NCBI GenBank assembly: GCA_007695055.1
Contig: REEM01000110.1
Span: forward strand, 1 to 60,458
DNA: 60,458 nt
DNA from: Spirochaetaceae bacterium
GTDB lineage: Bacteria; Spirochaetota; Spirochaetia; DSM-27196; SLAA01
Reading direction: 5' to 3'
A model generated the notes under the pieces. The model saw only the letters and a list, made by a program, of their open reading frames with translations. It had not been told where the DNA came from and ran no database searches. Shown here piece after piece: positions 47,206-57,337 of this stretch (the stretch's first letter is position 1; the number at the start of each line of letters is the position of its first letter). The position numbers were made by a program, and so were the translations under genes.

Positions 47206-47637
47206 GTGGACACAAACGTGCTCGTGTACAGTCGCGACACCACCGAAGTAGACAAGCACGCCGTCGCCTCGGACATCATGCGGCGTCTGTGGGAGGACCG
47301 CACCGGCGTTATCAGCACGCAGGTGTGCAGTGAGTTCTATGTCACGGTAACGCGAAAGCTTGATCCCGGACTGACGCCCGAAGAAGCATGGGAAGATCTA
47401 GAAGCGCTGCTGGCATGGGATCCGGTCCCGGTGAACGCAAGTTGTATGCGAGTCGCCAGGCATATCGAACTGCGATACGGCCTGTCCTGGTGGGATAGCC
47501 TGATCATTGCGGCCTGCAGCCAGGCCGGTTGTATCGAAATCCTCTCAGAAGACTTGAACCCGGGTCAGGAATATCTGGGTATTCGGGTAACGAATCCGTT
47601 CAATGCCGGTGGGTCAACCCTGGAAACGGAAACGTAA
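47206..47637 (+). CDS. PIN-domain toxin
   Basis: 143 residues from GTG 47206. Asp in FVDTNVLVYSRD, Glu in CSEFYVTVTRK, Asp in SWWDSLIIAA and Asp in LSEDLNPG are all present. The family usually begins MKQFVDTN; here AAGCAGTTT precedes the GTG but the expected start is GGT (47194-47196), as if one G of an ancestral GGTGAAG had been lost. The start may therefore be weakened. A 168-bp near-copy is at 60291-60458. Confidence 0.82.
   Translation: MDTNVLVYSRDTTEVDKHAVASDIMRRLWEDRTGVISTQVCSEFYVTVTRKLDPGLTPEEAWEDLEALLAWDPVPVNASCMRVARHIELRYGLSWWDSLIIAACSQAGCIEILSEDLNPGQEYLGIRVTNPFNAGGSTLETET
47366..47533 (+). repeat. 168-bp segment duplicated at the window end
   Basis: Matches 60291-60458 at 164 of 168 positions (four mismatches, all within the first 60 bases). 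The left border is abrupt at CCGGACTGACG. The match reaches the window edge, so its full length is unknown. Confidence 0.95.
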
Positions 47638-47668: not shown

Positions 47669-48067
47669 CTATGGAGGCCCATCTAACCACGCTGCGTGTG
47701 AGTAGTTGTCACGGATAGTGCGGTTCCGGGTGCACAACTCCGCACTGTAGGCGAGTGCGTGTGACACAATAAGGCGGTCAAATGGGTCCCGTGTCCATCT
47801 AAGGTGGTTTGCAATCTCGGCAGCCCGTAGCCACCCTGCGGTTTCTATCTGCACGCCAAGGTCACGTTCGAGAACTCCCAGAACTCCGGCCGGATCTTCT
47901 TTAACTCTGCCGATTTCGCACAGGAACGACATCTCCAGCCGCACCATGGGAGAGATGAAGAGCTCACTCTCATCCAGCAGTTGCTGGGTGGAGCCGGGAA
48001 TGCGGTACGGCTCTGCGAACAACCACAGTGCAACGTGTGTGTCTAGAAACACCACTATGGCTTCCAC
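47669..48067 (-). CDS. PIN-domain toxin (VapC)
   Basis: 132 residues; VVFLDTHVALWLFAEPYRIP start, RLEMSFLCEIGRVKEDP with the Glu, RDPFDRLIVSHALAYSAEL and a final CTRNRTIRDNYSHAAWL, in which the last Asp is retained. Start overlaps the antitoxin by 13 bp. Related by sequence to the relic at 59450-59560. Confidence 0.88.
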   Translation of the reverse strand: MEAIVVFLDTHVALWLFAEPYRIPGSTQQLLDESELFISPMVRLEMSFLCEIGRVKEDPAGVLGVLERDLGVQIETAGWLRAAEIANHLRWTRDPFDRLIVSHALAYSAELCTRNRTIRDNYSHAAWLDGPP

Positions 48068-51868: not shown

Positions 51869-53299
51869 TCAGCTATCTACGAGGTGTCGTTCTCCGTCGG
51901 CAACAAGCGTTGCAAGTCTGCGGAGAGCCTGCTCCTTGTCATGGTTAAGTATTCCCGGCGCTACGCGAATCCAGCCGTCGTAATCATCTTGGCACCGTGC
52001 AAACATCGCTCCCGGAGCAATAGCAATCCCCTCTTTCCGGGCTGCACGGAAGATATCGCGTCCGGATACTCCTTCAGGCATCCGTATCCAGAGGGCAAAA
52101 CCACCTGAAGGTGCCGTCACTTGAGATCCGGCGGGAAAGGTATCTTGCACCAGCTCGGCGGCCGCTGTCAGACTCTCGTAGACCAGCTTGCGATTGTGGT
52201 CCTGCACTCGGCGAACCTTTCCGGAAGCGAGCATGTGCTCAAGGATTGCAAGCTGCAACGCCGAGACGGTGCATGATGTGGCTTGCCAGCGGTCGCGAAC
52301 ATGTGTCGCATGTGTTCCGGCGGCGACCCATGCTGCCTTGATTGACGGTACAAGCGTCTCTGCATAGGATGAGCACAGAAACACCGAACCTGAGGGGGCC
52401 AACGAGTAGAGGCTTGGGGAAGCTGAAGTTGTGTAGCGCATGTCCCGCAGCATCCCATACTCAATCACCTTCAGCTGAGTCTCATCAACGAGGTGTGCTA
52501 TTTCCGCGAGCACGGACTCCGGAAGGCATGAACCTGTTGGATTGTGTACCGCAGTATCCAAGAGAGCAATTCCTACCTGATTTCGCCGCACTGCCTCGGC
52601 CAGACGCGCGACCGAGAAAGAACCGTCCGGCATTGTGGGCAGCTCAAAAGCCGGCATACCTAAGGCCCGAAGAATCGTCAAATGTCCGTAATACGTTGGA
52701 GCCTGAACCGCAACCGGGAGACGTTGCGGATTGAGCGTTACCAGGAGCTGAAACACGGTTTGCTCTATCGAGCTTGCCAGAACGAGTTGATCAGGATTGA
52801 TAGCAATCCCGTGAAGCATTTCGCGCTGACTGACAAGCGAACGCAACTCTGCGGTGCGTTCAAATGTGGCGAATCCATCGAGGAGTGGAGACTGGGTTGA
52901 TGCGGCCGCTTGCATTGCCGACTTGATCAGGTCCGCCGGTACCAGTTCTTGGGGGAGAACCGCATGATCCATCTTTGCAGTTGTGGGGGCTGCTGCTGGC
53001 CGGCAGGTATATTCCTCAATCACTGCGTCAACAAGATCGTCAACGTACTCCGATCCTTCAAAGACTTCCGGCCGTGAAACCACATAGGTTCCGGCTCGCG
53101 GCCTGCTTTCTATGAGGCCGCGATCCTGCAGTAGGTTCAGGGCCGACTTCATAGTATTTATGCTCGCGGCGAACGACTCAGCGAGCTGGCGAATTGAGGC
53201 AATGCGTTCACCCGGCTCATACACGCCGTCGGCGATAGACTGCTCGATGCGATCCGCGATCACGCGATATCGATGTTCTCGTACTTTTGCCTGAAACAT
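51869..53299 (-). CDS. MocR-family regulator with degenerate PLP site
   Basis: 476 residues: GntR winged helix (GVYEPGERIASIRQLAESFAASINTMKSALNLL) linked to a fold-type-I aminotransferase domain. Expected PLP residues are altered: the lysine motif 'SFSKT' reads SYAET (Lys to Glu), and the 'EDDPY' segment reads VIEYGML, losing Asp and Tyr; NPTG and the terminal Arg remain. It therefore probably cannot form the Schiff base and may sense another ligand. Promoter with direct repeats at 53322-53343. Start lies 5 bases after TATGAT, no ribosome-binding site. Confidence 0.88.
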   Translation of the reverse strand: MFQAKVREHRYRVIADRIEQSIADGVYEPGERIASIRQLAESFAASINTMKSALNLLQDRGLIESRPRAGTYVVSRPEVFEGSEYVDDLVDAVIEEYTCRPAAAPTTAKMDHAVLPQELVPADLIKSAMQAAASTQSPLLDGFATFERTAELRSLVSQREMLHGIAINPDQLVLASSIEQTVFQLLVTLNPQRLPVAVQAPTYYGHLTILRALGMPAFELPTMPDGSFSVARLAEAVRRNQVGIALLDTAVHNPTGSCLPESVLAEIAHLVDETQLKVIEYGMLRDMRYTTSASPSLYSLAPSGSVFLCSSYAETLVPSIKAAWVAAGTHATHVRDRWQATSCTVSALQLAILEHMLASGKVRRVQDHNRKLVYESLTAAAELVQDTFPAGSQVTAPSGGFALWIRMPEGVSGRDIFRAARKEGIAIAPGAMFARCQDDYDGWIRVAPGILNHDKEQALRRLATLVADGERHLVDS

Positions 53300-53304
53300 A
53301 TGGT

Positions 53305-53343
53305 ATCATAGCGCATCCTAAGGATACAGTTCAGGACACAGTT
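53305..53343 (-). promoter_or_regulatory. MocR promoter with direct-repeat operators
   Basis: TATGAT (53305-53310) ends 5 bases before the ATG. Upstream are direct repeats GGATACAGTT (53322-53331) and GGACACAGTT (53334-53343), 12 bp apart, the first overlapping the -35 region. The same repeat flanks the aminotransferase/DMT divergent promoter. Confidence 0.65.
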
Positions 53344-53377: not shown

Positions 53378-53623
53378 CTACGCGGTACAGCCTTGTACAT
53401 CCGGCGAGGTCACACGAATAGTAGCCGGGCCGCTCCCGGGGTTCACTGCAACGGCCACGTTTCGCACGTCGGTGGAGCAGTACGAAGCACCCATAGGAAG
53501 GATAATGTCTCGTCCGTTGTCGGTTACCCATACGGTTCCTGCAACAGCAAAAACGCTGCTGCCGCCGACAATGGAGAGAGTTTCACGCGGACCAAGAATA
53601 ACGGTTTGTATGTGAGTTTTCAT
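53378..53623 (-). CDS. DUF2917-like protein
   Basis: 81 residues, all beta: ILGPRETLSIVGGSSVFAVA, GTVWVTDNGRDIILPMGASY, matching the DUF2917 pattern (small cupin-like strands, 'G.vWvT....D..L..G'). No function known. Lies between two MocR genes on the same strand. TAGTGT ends 6 bases before the ATG and no ribosome-binding site is visible. Confidence 0.72.
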   Translation of the reverse strand: MKTHIQTVILGPRETLSIVGGSSVFAVAGTVWVTDNGRDIILPMGASYCSTDVRNVAVAVNPGSGPATIRVTSPDVQGCTA

Positions 53624-53707
53624 GTGACAACACTACGCGTAACCAAGTTAAAGAACGAGACACAATACGGGGTGCTTCAAAGGGTACAGCACGGACGTGT
53701 GCGGGGC

Positions 53708-55183
53708 TCAGGGGCCGGTGCGATCGGCCGTACGGCAGGCAGCCGAGCCGATGGCTTTGATTGCAGCCTCTACGGTGGAATCCCACTTGGTAGCATTAAC
53801 CCGCATACAGTTCCGATAGTTGCCACTGAGGGTAAACATCGGCCCCGGCGCAAAACAGATCTGCTCACGCCGGACCTGCTCATACACTTCCGTGACGTTG
53901 ATCTGCGGCGGCAAGACGATCCAGATCACCATTCCGCCCGCAGGATTGGTCATCTGTGTTCCTTGCGGAAAGCTCTCAAGAACAGCCCTCCGCACCTGTG
54001 AGACCGACTCGCGGTAATGGCGCCGTGCCGACCGGAGCCACCGCTCATGGCCTCCATTCGCCAGAAACGCGGCAATCCCGAGTGACGTTGGAATAACGAC
54101 CGCGGCTGAGGTGACCAGCTTCGAGTGGGTAACCGGACCGATCAGGGTAGGGCCGGTGGCTATCCAGCCCACGCGGTATCCGGGAGCAATCGACTTGCTG
54201 AAGGACGCGCATAAGAGCGTGCGGTTTGGGTCGGTGAACGAGGCCAGTGATGGAGGCCGTTCTACATTCCAGGCCATCTCTCCGTACATATCGTCTTCCA
54301 CCAGAATCACCTCATGGCGCTCCAGTACCGCTGCGATCCGCCTCTTGCGCTCAATTGGAATTAACGACCCAATGGGATTCGAGAAGTTTGCGATAAGCAC
54401 AGCGGCAGCTACTTTTGGTCCAACACCTCGCTGGCGACGTCGCTCTGCATCTGTAAGGATCTGGTCGAGGTCTTCAGGGTCTACGCCTGTTGAAGGGCGA
54501 CTTGGTATCTCGATGGCTTGGAGCCGTAGCTTTTCCAGGAGCTGGTAGAAAAGGAAGAAGCCGGGTGACTCAATCACCACCGAATCACCGGGAGAACATA
54601 CCGTCATGAGGGAGAGAAATACCGCCTCGAGACATCCGGCCGTGATGAGTATCTGATCCGGTGACACCGATACGCTGCCACGAAACAAACGTCTGGCAAT
54701 CTCCAGTCGAAGCACCTCTGGGCCCGGGGGTAGCTCATAGCTCACTGCACGTTCCGGTTGGCGCCGCAGTTCTTTTGCCGTCAAGTCCGCCAAACGGCGT
54801 GCGGGAAGCAAGGCCGCAGGTGGCTCAGCCGTGGCCAGGTTGACCCAGCCCGGACGCATACAGTCCTGCATGACGCGCTGCGTGAGACTTCCTGCGGACG
54901 CGTCCCGTGGTATGGACTCAGCCGGGTCAGGGAAGTCCATTGAGCAGTCGTCACACAATGGCGGCAGCCGGAGCACGAAGTGCCCGGAGTGACTTCGGGG
55001 GTTAACGATTCCCCGGTCTTCCAAGAGCCGGTAAGCCTCCCGGGCGGTATTTATGCTCACCTGAAACTCCCGATGAATATCCCTAATCGATGGAAGACGT
55101 TCACCCGGTTCGTATACGCCGGTTGCAATGGTTTCTTCCAGTCGTTGTGCTACCTCTTGATACAACGGAATAGCTTTTGACAT
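53708..55183 (-). CDS. MocR-family regulator (GntR-aminotransferase fusion)
   Basis: 491 residues: GntR domain GVYEPGERLPSIRDIHREFQVSINTAREAYRLL, linker, aminotransferase domain with VEDDMYGEMAW (Asp/Tyr), ANFSNPIGS and the PLP lysine in CASFSKSIAPGYRVGW. All PLP residues are intact, in contrast to the MocR at 51869. It starts 11 bp after the upstream aminotransferase gene and is likely co-transcribed. Confidence 0.93.
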   Translation of the reverse strand: MSKAIPLYQEVAQRLEETIATGVYEPGERLPSIRDIHREFQVSINTAREAYRLLEDRGIVNPRSHSGHFVLRLPPLCDDCSMDFPDPAESIPRDASAGSLTQRVMQDCMRPGWVNLATAEPPAALLPARRLADLTAKELRRQPERAVSYELPPGPEVLRLEIARRLFRGSVSVSPDQILITAGCLEAVFLSLMTVCSPGDSVVIESPGFFLFYQLLEKLRLQAIEIPSRPSTGVDPEDLDQILTDAERRRQRGVGPKVAAAVLIANFSNPIGSLIPIERKRRIAAVLERHEVILVEDDMYGEMAWNVERPPSLASFTDPNRTLLCASFSKSIAPGYRVGWIATGPTLIGPVTHSKLVTSAAVVIPTSLGIAAFLANGGHERWLRSARRHYRESVSQVRRAVLESFPQGTQMTNPAGGMVIWIVLPPQINVTEVYEQVRREQICFAPGPMFTLSGNYRNCMRVNATKWDSTVEAAIKAIGSAACRTADRTGP

Positions 55184-55194
55184 CTCTGCCTTCC

Positions 55195-56337
55195 TTACAT
55201 ACCCTGAACCGCCGCTGCAATGCGCCCCACTGCATCCGGAATGAGACGCTCCGACACATTCGTGAAGTTAAGTCGTATGGTCGATCTGTCAGGCTCTTGG
55301 AGGTAAAAGTGTTGTCCCGGCACAAAAGCCACGCCGCGCTTGATTGCGTAACCGAACAGCTCTTCCGTCGGCACCGGGAGCGATGCCCAGAGGAACATTC
55401 CACCGCCAGCGACCCAGGGGATTCGAGCCCCGGGCACGAGTGTTTCGATAGCCTGCACCAGCGCATCACGTTGAGCTTGGTATGTGCGGCATATACGTGA
55501 TAGGTGCGCATCAAGGTTGAACTCTCCGCCGGTGAGTAGCTCCCGGAGAATTGACTGGATTAAGGTCGATGTATGCAGATCTGTTGCTTGCTTGATTGGC
55601 TCCAAGTGTTCCAACAGCGAACAATGGGCACGAATAAAACCCAGCCGCAAGGACGGTGCCACCGACTTTGAAAAGCTCCCAAGATAGATGACCCGGTCGG
55701 GCACTCTTTGGGCGACCAAGGGTGAGTCGGTTTCACCGAAGCTAATCTCACCGTAGGGATCATCTTCAATCATCCAGCAGTCTGTCTTCATGAGAAGTTC
55801 CGCCATGGCGTTCGCAGTGGCTGCGGGGTAGCTGCGGCCGGTAGGGTTCTGAAATCGGCTCATGCCGTAGTACACCGCAGCACCTGTGTCAAATGCTTGT
55901 TCGAGCGTCTCCAGATCAGGCCCGGCGTCATTCAACGGAACCGGAATCAGCGGCACGCGGGAAGCTTGGAACGCCAGACGAGCGCCAAGATAGCCTGGGT
56001 CTTCAAAGGCAATCGGCCGGTCGGAAAACAGTTTTGCACACAGATCAAGTCCTTGCTGGGAGCCGGAGGTGATCATGACCTCATCCGGGGTGGTTGGGAT
56101 ACCATGATGTGAGCACAAACGATCGGCAATCCAGCTGCGCAGATCGGCGTCTCCGGAGCTTGCTCCGTATTGTAGTACTGAGGCACCGTCTTGCATAAGC
56201 ACGCGGTCTGCCGCAGCTCGGATTTCATCCACGGGAAATAGATCAGCCAGCGGAAGTCCACCTGCCAGACTCAGAACCTCGGGTGATGATGCGACCCTGA
56301 GAATCTCACGAATAAAAGACCGTTCTACACCATACAT
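55195..56337 (-). CDS. PLP-dependent aminotransferase (MocR-like catalytic domain, LysN type)
   Basis: 380 residues, no DNA-binding domain: LSLAGGLPLADLFP start typical of 2-aminoadipate/multi-substrate aminotransferases, SGSQQGLDL, RFQNPTGRSYP, EDDPYGEISFG and PLP Lys in GSFSKSVAPSLRLGF. Cytoplasmic transamination of an amino acid; substrate unknown. First gene of the leftward aminotransferase-MocR operon, sharing a 184-bp divergent region with the DMT exporter. Confidence 0.9.
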   Translation of the reverse strand: MYGVERSFIREILRVASSPEVLSLAGGLPLADLFPVDEIRAAADRVLMQDGASVLQYGASSGDADLRSWIADRLCSHHGIPTTPDEVMITSGSQQGLDLCAKLFSDRPIAFEDPGYLGARLAFQASRVPLIPVPLNDAGPDLETLEQAFDTGAAVYYGMSRFQNPTGRSYPAATANAMAELLMKTDCWMIEDDPYGEISFGETDSPLVAQRVPDRVIYLGSFSKSVAPSLRLGFIRAHCSLLEHLEPIKQATDLHTSTLIQSILRELLTGGEFNLDAHLSRICRTYQAQRDALVQAIETLVPGARIPWVAGGGMFLWASLPVPTEELFGYAIKRGVAFVPGQHFYLQEPDRSTIRLNFTNVSERLIPDAVGRIAAAVQGM

Positions 56338-56387: not shown

Positions 56388-56411
56388 GGACACAGATGAT
56401 AAGACACAGTT
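56388..56411 (-). promoter_or_regulatory. MocR-type direct repeats near the aminotransferase promoter
   Basis: GGACACAGAT (56388-56397) and AGACACAGTT (56402-56411), 14 bp apart, same orientation relative to their gene as the pair at 53322-53343. Confidence 0.6.
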
Positions 56412-56476: not shown

Positions 56477-56506
56477 AACTGTGTCTGGTCTTCATTAACT
56501 GCGTGA
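56477..56506 (+). promoter_or_regulatory. MocR-type direct repeats near the DMT exporter promoter
   Basis: AACTGTGTCT (56477-56486) and AACTGCGTGA (56497-56506), 20 bp apart, are the same motif in the orientation of the rightward gene, ending 15 bp before its ATG. Confidence 0.55.
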
Positions 56507-56521
56507 CGTACCGTAGCGCGC

Positions 56522-57337
56522 ATGAAGAGCAAAAACGGCGTTACACGGAAGCCGCTGGTATGGATCGTTTACGCGGCTCTCTGTCTCATTTTTGGTACTA
56601 CATTCCTGGCGATCAAGATTGGATCCAATGCTGGGATACCTCCTTTTATTGGTGCGGGTGTGCGTTTTGTGGTGGCCGGTGTGGTATTGGTTGTCCTCCG
56701 CGGTAAACTTCGAGGACCCCAGCGGCCATCCCTGAGCTTTGTGGGCAAGGCAAGTTTGCTCGGGCTCGGTATGGTTGGCTTAGCATTTGCGTGTACCTAT
56801 TGGTCGATACAGCACCTTCAGTCCGGGTATGCCGCTCAGATACAGTCGAGTGCGCCCATCATTGTAGCTCTCCTCGCGGCGGTGGGGGCCCTTGTGGCGC
56901 TGGGTGCGGAGCTCTTTTTTGGCTTAGGTACCATTTGGCATCGCTTCGCGTTTGACAAGGGTGTAGATAGTCTCCAGGTAAACGGATTCAGCATGCTTTC
57001 TGGGGGACTCTTCTTATGCGTGATTGCCGTGGCCACGGCTCAGACGGGGTTGCCGCTAAGCTTTGCTGCACTAAGCTCATTGCTCTACTTGGTAGTCGTT
57101 GGCTCCATTGGCGGCCACTCGATGTATTTGTGGCTGGTCGGCCAAACCGGTCCGGTCTTTGCGTCAACTTGGTTGTATATTTCGCCCGTGATCGCTACCT
57201 TCGTAGGCTCCGTCGTGCTTTCAGAGGCGGTCGGCGCCTCAACCATAGCAGGAGCCGCACTTGTACTCATGGGGGTTTACTGGATTAACCGGGCTGAGCA
57301 CGGCGGGCGGCTTTTCGCTGAAAAACGGAACTACTAA
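56522..57337 (+). CDS. EamA/DMT-family transporter, internally shortened
   Basis: 271 residues. First EamA half (CLIFGTTFLAIKIGSNAG, PPFIGAGVRFVVAG, ..YAAQIQSSAPIIVALLAA) goes straight into GALVALGAELFFGLGTIWHRF of the second half. About 40 residues, including the 'GERLT...G...G.GV' helix, are missing compared with the family, so the two halves are unequal. The frame is kept. Likely amino-acid or metabolite exporter controlled with the MocR cluster. Confidence 0.83.
   Translation: MKSKNGVTRKPLVWIVYAALCLIFGTTFLAIKIGSNAGIPPFIGAGVRFVVAGVVLVVLRGKLRGPQRPSLSFVGKASLLGLGMVGLAFACTYWSIQHLQSGYAAQIQSSAPIIVALLAAVGALVALGAELFFGLGTIWHRFAFDKGVDSLQVNGFSMLSGGLFLCVIAVATAQTGLPLSFAALSSLLYLVVVGSIGGHSMYLWLVGQTGPVFASTWLYISPVIATFVGSVVLSEAVGASTIAGAALVLMGVYWINRAEHGGRLFAEKRNY

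Follow-up and report, generated by a model that had tools for sequence, protein, structure and literature searches.

We describe a MocR-type regulator in which the residues that hold PLP are replaced while the overall fold is kept. Its gene lies at 51869..53299 on the reverse strand of the window (the whole stretch of 60,458 nucleotides analysed here) and encodes 476 amino acids (ATG at 53299; the stop codon ends at 51869). Loss of PLP binding with retention of the fold is well supported by alignment, by orthologues and by the predicted structure. The explanation that we favor, with a probability of about one half, is that the protein is a PLP-independent MocR paralogue that would act at the operators of an intact MocR encoded nearby, as a repressor or competitor that cannot be induced.

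Domain Architecture and Predicted Structure

By descent and architecture, the gene product is a MocR offshoot. It has an N-terminal GntR winged-HTH domain (residues 11–73; 53081..53269, reverse strand; Pfam PF00392, 55 bits against a cut-off of 27), the retention of which is also seen in an HTH comparison. The C-terminal part is an aminotransferase class I/II domain (residues 124–461; 51917..52930, reverse strand; PF00155, 59 bits against a cut-off of 19.7), with an aminotransferase-like fold of type I according to Pfam, AlphaFold2 and Foldseek. GabR of Bacillus subtilis and PdxR of Bacillus clausii, members of the MocR subfamily of GntR regulators, combine the same two domains. Regulators of this subfamily, which normally use vitamin B6 (as PLP) to sense signals, form head-to-tail dimers via the aminotransferase domain; according to published descriptions, they have given up catalysis but still bind PLP. 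The best NCBIfam model for the regulator is the PdxR equivalog NF052282, at 179 bits, which is below its curated cut-off of 320. The protein likely works at DNA in the manner of a MocR.

The AlphaFold2 monomer model built from ten sequences has a mean pLDDT of 81.7 and a pTM of 0.76 (an earlier model from 7 sequences was poor, pLDDT 56.5). Its top match in Foldseek is GabR (4n0b, E 2e-27), and the C-terminal domains of GabR and PdxR match it with target TM-scores of 0.84–0.86, at about 3 Å. The sequence-only reading had claimed that the fold is kept and had proposed a structure prediction to be compared with GabR and PdxR; these two are indeed the structures that the model resembles most.

Replacement of the PLP Residues

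With the adjacent MocR, a free aminotransferase and LysN (PDB) as reference sequences, both active-site motifs align gap-free: EYGML of the regulator (residues 280–284; 52448..52462, reverse strand) lies over EDDxY, and SSYAET (SYAET, residues 311–315; 52355..52369, reverse strand) lies over SFSK-S/T. The Asp that pairs with PLP N1 is replaced by Tyr281, the Tyr by Leu284 and the Schiff-base Lys by Glu314, while Ser311 is kept. These three changes had already been read from the sequence by itself; the alignments bear them out, and the same residues are found in the orthologues from a genome of the same genus (G001) and from a genome of another family of the order (G025). Beyond them, the alignment reveals the changes of the second Asp to Gly282, of the phosphate-site Arg to Lys321 and of a Gly to Ala323. 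Overall, 12 of 41 positions, each at least 85% conserved in 39 rows of intact MocR-like proteins, are changed in the regulator, and five of the 12 (281, 282, 314, 321 and 323) lie inside the two PLP motifs. Both orthologues carry the same replacement at 11 of the 12, the exception being position 54 (Phe in G025). Asn253, Ser311, Trp404 and Arg445 are retained, and Tyr203 aligns with the aromatic residue at the ring-stacking position of the family, which is Tyr205 in GabR (PMC6677901).

The Schiff-base Lys and the N1 Asp (Lys312 and Asp279 in GabR, both without a counterpart here) are reported to be conserved across all MocR clusters (PMC6677901), and another paper states that every MocR-like regulator has the lysine (PMC2018728). 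We compared 63 distinct full-length MocRs, among them cyanobacterial and proteobacterial plasmid copies. The lysine is retained in 60 and missing from three, namely the regulator and its two orthologues. As it lacks both the Lys and the Asp, two defining features of PLP-dependent MocRs, the regulator should not be counted among them.

Could PLP still be used, either with Lys321 as a displaced Schiff base or bound non-covalently? A displaced lysine had been named beforehand as the finding to look for against the claimed loss. Of the ten lysines of the regulator, the distant G025 orthologue shares just two, K321 and K455. K321 (52337..52339, reverse strand) aligns with the Arg that binds the PLP phosphate; by alignment, no other candidate is near the pocket, and K321 is conserved in all three orthologues. 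It nevertheless appears to be an unlikely anchor: all three proteins have a bulky Tyr in place of the N1 Asp and an acidic Glu in place of the Lys, and the same change from Arg to Lys occurs in a MocR with the normal lysine (L060), so it need not mark a new anchor. In addition, EnuR loses PLP upon the replacement Lys302His (PMC8739950). We regard continued use of PLP as very improbable.

Conservation and Distribution

The regulator shares 96% identity with its orthologue in G001 and about 64% with that in G025; the two match the MAG contigs SLAA01000015.1 and SLTF01000050.1, respectively. The regulator's own genome is that of a Spirochaetales lineage. The isolate prefix of both MAGs, CSSed, presumably stands for soda-lake sediment. 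The segment EYGMLRDMR is identical in both orthologues, and residues 303–329, around the lost lysine, are 96% identical to G025 (one difference) compared with 64% for the whole protein. The occurrence of the same altered residues in G001 and G025 argues against chance or assembly error. Relative to G001, dN/dS is 0.19 both for the entire gene and for the aminotransferase domain alone; neighboring genes have values of 0.13 to 0.28. In the tree, the regulator and its orthologues form a clade with support 100/100 on a stem of 2.6 changes per site, that is, one phase of rapid change followed by constraint. Such a phase of fast change is what speaks for a decaying MocR gene, a reading to which, together with that of an assembly artefact, we give scarcely any probability: the gene is full length in three genomes with the altered residues fixed, and the orthologues and dN/dS rule out a pseudogene or artefact. 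By these comparisons, the regulator is a functional, reshaped protein under purifying selection.

A MocR that looks truly damaged provides a contrast. L068 of genome G149 (L068/L077, G149:C115), located beside corrinoid-methyltransferase-type genes, reads SFSN where SFSK is expected, and its C-terminus is disrupted. It is a probable case of decay, or else reflects errors in a genome that is 60% complete.

The regulator is present in three of 46 genomes of the order, a small sample of orthologues with two from one genus, and evenly drawn samples from the phylum (393 genomes) and the class (395 genomes), both overlapping the 46, yielded no further copy. A scan of genome contigs returned the two orthologues and two distant matches; scans of viral contigs added only two MocRs to the alignment.

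The Neighboring MocR and the Question of Heterodimers

A complete MocR and a free aminotransferase had been reported next door, and both are there. The PLP-intact MocR (EDDMYGE, SFSK; Pfam and alignment) occupies 53708..55183 and the class I/II aminotransferase (Pfam) 55195..56337, 12 bp upstream of it; both are on the reverse strand and probably form one operon. Divergent from this operon is an EamA-family (DMT) transporter gene (56522..57337, forward strand; Pfam). Compared with its G001 homologue, the EamA gene of the window is missing 111 bp (in frame); the transporter may be impaired in its own genome, or this may be a matter of assembly. Two convergent ORFs at 47206–47637 (forward) and 47669–48067 (reverse) resemble, by eye, PIN-domain (VapC-type) toxins. 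Scans for Rfam matches, tRNAs and terminator-like sites found none. The free aminotransferase does not always accompany the regulator: we found no close orthologue of it in G025.

The regulator and the intact MocR are about 26% identical overall. The tree leaves them ungrouped but is compatible with a common origin (AU p-value of 0.19); it neither joins nor separates them as paralogues. The HTH of the regulator is most similar to those of the neighboring MocR and its orthologues (47–52% identity vs at most 44% for others), and the motif VYEPGER is confined to these two groups. Among the 46 genomes of the order, the clade of the intact MocR occurs in four, namely the three that have the regulator and G031.

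It had been suggested that the regulator might be a dominant partner of the intact MocR through heterodimers. The two proteins would pair via their aminotransferase domains, with one PLP site, in a dominant-negative or allosteric arrangement resembling that of LCB1. LCB1 of serine palmitoyltransferase likewise belongs to fold type I, has no PLP lysine and exists alongside an intact paralogue, LCB2, with which it works as a heterodimer, although it is an enzyme subunit and the regulator is a predicted transcription factor (PMC3794620). The co-occurrence of the intact-MocR clade in all three genomes with the regulator fits such a pairing, and operator boxes common to both genes (see below) would place both regulators on the same DNA. 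However, the identity is only about 26%, G031 has the intact MocR without the regulator, and the two genes are not adjacent in G025. We considered adjacency in G025 and rejected it: the genes are on separate contigs with non-overlapping ends, and another gene comes next after the MocR. Heterodimers seem distinctly unlikely. Dominance as such gains indirect support from the shared boxes and the closest HTH, while the heterodimer part of the suggestion fares poorly; competition at the same DNA sites requires no heterodimer.

Candidate Operator Boxes

Before the regulator gene lies a candidate operator (53322..53341, reverse strand), the direct repeat CTGTGTCC-TGAA-CTGTATCC. In G025, 19 of its 20 bases are kept at a nearly equal distance from the ATG, amid flanking DNA that is unalignable, and the regulator's own genome contains no second exact copy of the 20 bases. 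This direct repeat of CTGTGTCC in the promoter of the regulator, conserved in a distant orthologue, is a new observation at the sequence level. Beside the start codon, direct reading gives TATGAT (53305..53310, reverse strand), a possible -10 element that the promoter scan missed. The arrangement CTGTGTCC-N4-CTGTATCC can be compared with the operators of MocRs, direct and/or inverted repeats with a TGT or TGG core; according to one study, they are often direct repeats and most have such a core (PMC5320631). The operators of GabR and PdxR are direct repeats as well.

A second candidate operator, AACTGTGTCTTATCATCTGTGTCC (56388..56411, reverse strand), precedes the aminotransferase–MocR operon, and a third box found by motif inspection, AACTGTGTCT (56477..56486, forward strand), faces EamA. 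The core CTGTGTC has three copies in the 184-bp intergenic region between the operon and EamA, where 0.03 would be expected, and the boxes of this region are conserved in G001 save for one base in one box, the operator before the operon. We scanned four genomes for paired boxes. In G025 there are exactly two matches, one before its MocR and one before the orthologue of the regulator. In G001 and the regulator's own genome (G000), both promoters are within a handful of matches, the others being about as numerous as in the reversed control. We found the motif by inspection and picked the gap range once the sites had been seen; these box statistics are therefore suggestive and do not amount to a pre-planned test. 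The box also precedes the operon or gene of the PLP-intact MocR in two lineages. Boxes common to both promoters in two lineages, together with the closest HTH, make shared operators and cross-regulation between the regulator and the intact MocR likely.

A Linked DUF2917-Like Gene

Just upstream of the regulator, between both MocRs, is a gene for a DUF2917-like protein of 81 amino acids (53378..53623, reverse strand; profile and homology), an ORF shorter than the length limit of the program-made ORF list. It scores 15.3 bits against PF11142 (DUF2917) and its G025 counterpart 20.1, both below the gathering cut-off of 25.5, so that we call it DUF2917-like only. This counterpart matches it with 51% identity over 63 residues and shares a contig with the orthologue of the regulator. 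In the order, four of the 46 genomes clearly contain the gene, including the three with the regulator (G000, G001 and G025), and no other genome of the 393-genome draw from the phylum has it. The fourth, G014 (L092:327-1838, reverse; G014:C20), has it without the regulator, followed by what appear by eye to be a minimal-nucleotidyltransferase-like and a HEPN-type ORF. In G025 (L073:751-1842, reverse; G025:C121), the DUF2917-like gene and the regulator are separated by an alpha/beta-hydrolase-like gene that is divergent from the regulator, and the conserved operator may therefore serve this divergent pair; near the MocR of G031 there is a similar ORF (L075:1168-2031).

The linkage of the DUF2917-like gene to the regulator in both lineages bears on the idea that the regulator is an independent sensor, whose PLP-free pocket binds a specific small molecule and which has targets of its own, such as itself and the DUF2917-like gene, the box being inherited or coincidental. 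Also in its favor, the altered pocket is among the best-conserved parts of the protein and retains residues of carboxylate type (Asn253 and Arg445). Yet the boxes and the HTH resemblance tie the regulator to the intact MocR in two lineages, and the single box before the DUF2917-like gene, ATTGTGTCTCGTTC (53653..53666, reverse strand; motif inspection), is weak and post hoc. Full independence is, in our judgment, rather unlikely.

Discussion

The favored reading, a PLP-independent paralogue at the operators of the intact MocR, can be put as follows. The regulator would keep its DNA-reading head and the dimer-making aminotransferase fold, while the internal aldimine would not form. It would act at the CTGTGTCY boxes of the intact MocR, at its own gene and in the intergenic region between the aminotransferase–MocR operon and EamA, as a repressor or competitor beyond release by a PLP-reactive inducer, and would hence set a threshold on the action of the intact MocR. 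Should the regulator recognize these boxes, competition would be expected at the promoters of the aminotransferase–MocR operon, of EamA and of the regulator gene itself. Since boxes lie in its own promoter, the regulator is probably controlled by the intact MocR, by itself or by both.

EnuR Lys302His offers the closest analogy, a MocR without the PLP lysine that binds no PLP but still folds and dimerises and is a constitutive repressor (PMC8739950). By this analogy, the regulator should fold, dimerise, bind DNA and ignore a PLP-reactive inducer. The EnuR variant is engineered, whereas the loss in the regulator is natural, comes with changes of the Asp, Tyr and Arg and is conserved between families.

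The pocket appears to be rebuilt around Tyr281, Glu314 and Lys321, with Asn253, Arg445 and Tyr203 retained. Its strong conservation points to a ligand that is probably bound without a Schiff base, most simply an amino or keto acid bearing a carboxylate, and for the same reason the earlier suggestion that the protein senses a different ligand is plausible. It is tempting to hypothesize, though we do so tentatively and at less than even odds, that a PLP-sensing MocR and a PLP-blind paralogue form a true/pseudo pair, using one operator code for different signals, a PLP-reactive inducer in one case and a non-covalent ligand in the other.

In gene content, the neighborhood of the intact MocR resembles PdxQ-type MocR regulons, which have a DMT transporter and PLP-dependent aminotransferases; the accessible part of their description mentions no second regulator that lacks the lysine (PMC5320631). 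We found no natural lysine-less MocR in the accessible literature, and one may have been published, as subscription papers were mostly outside its scope. A conserved natural MocR without the Lys and Asp would mean that the MocR architecture can do without the cofactor. The behavior of a MocR without the aldimine, known so far in the literature that we found from EnuR Lys302His, becomes testable in a natural protein.
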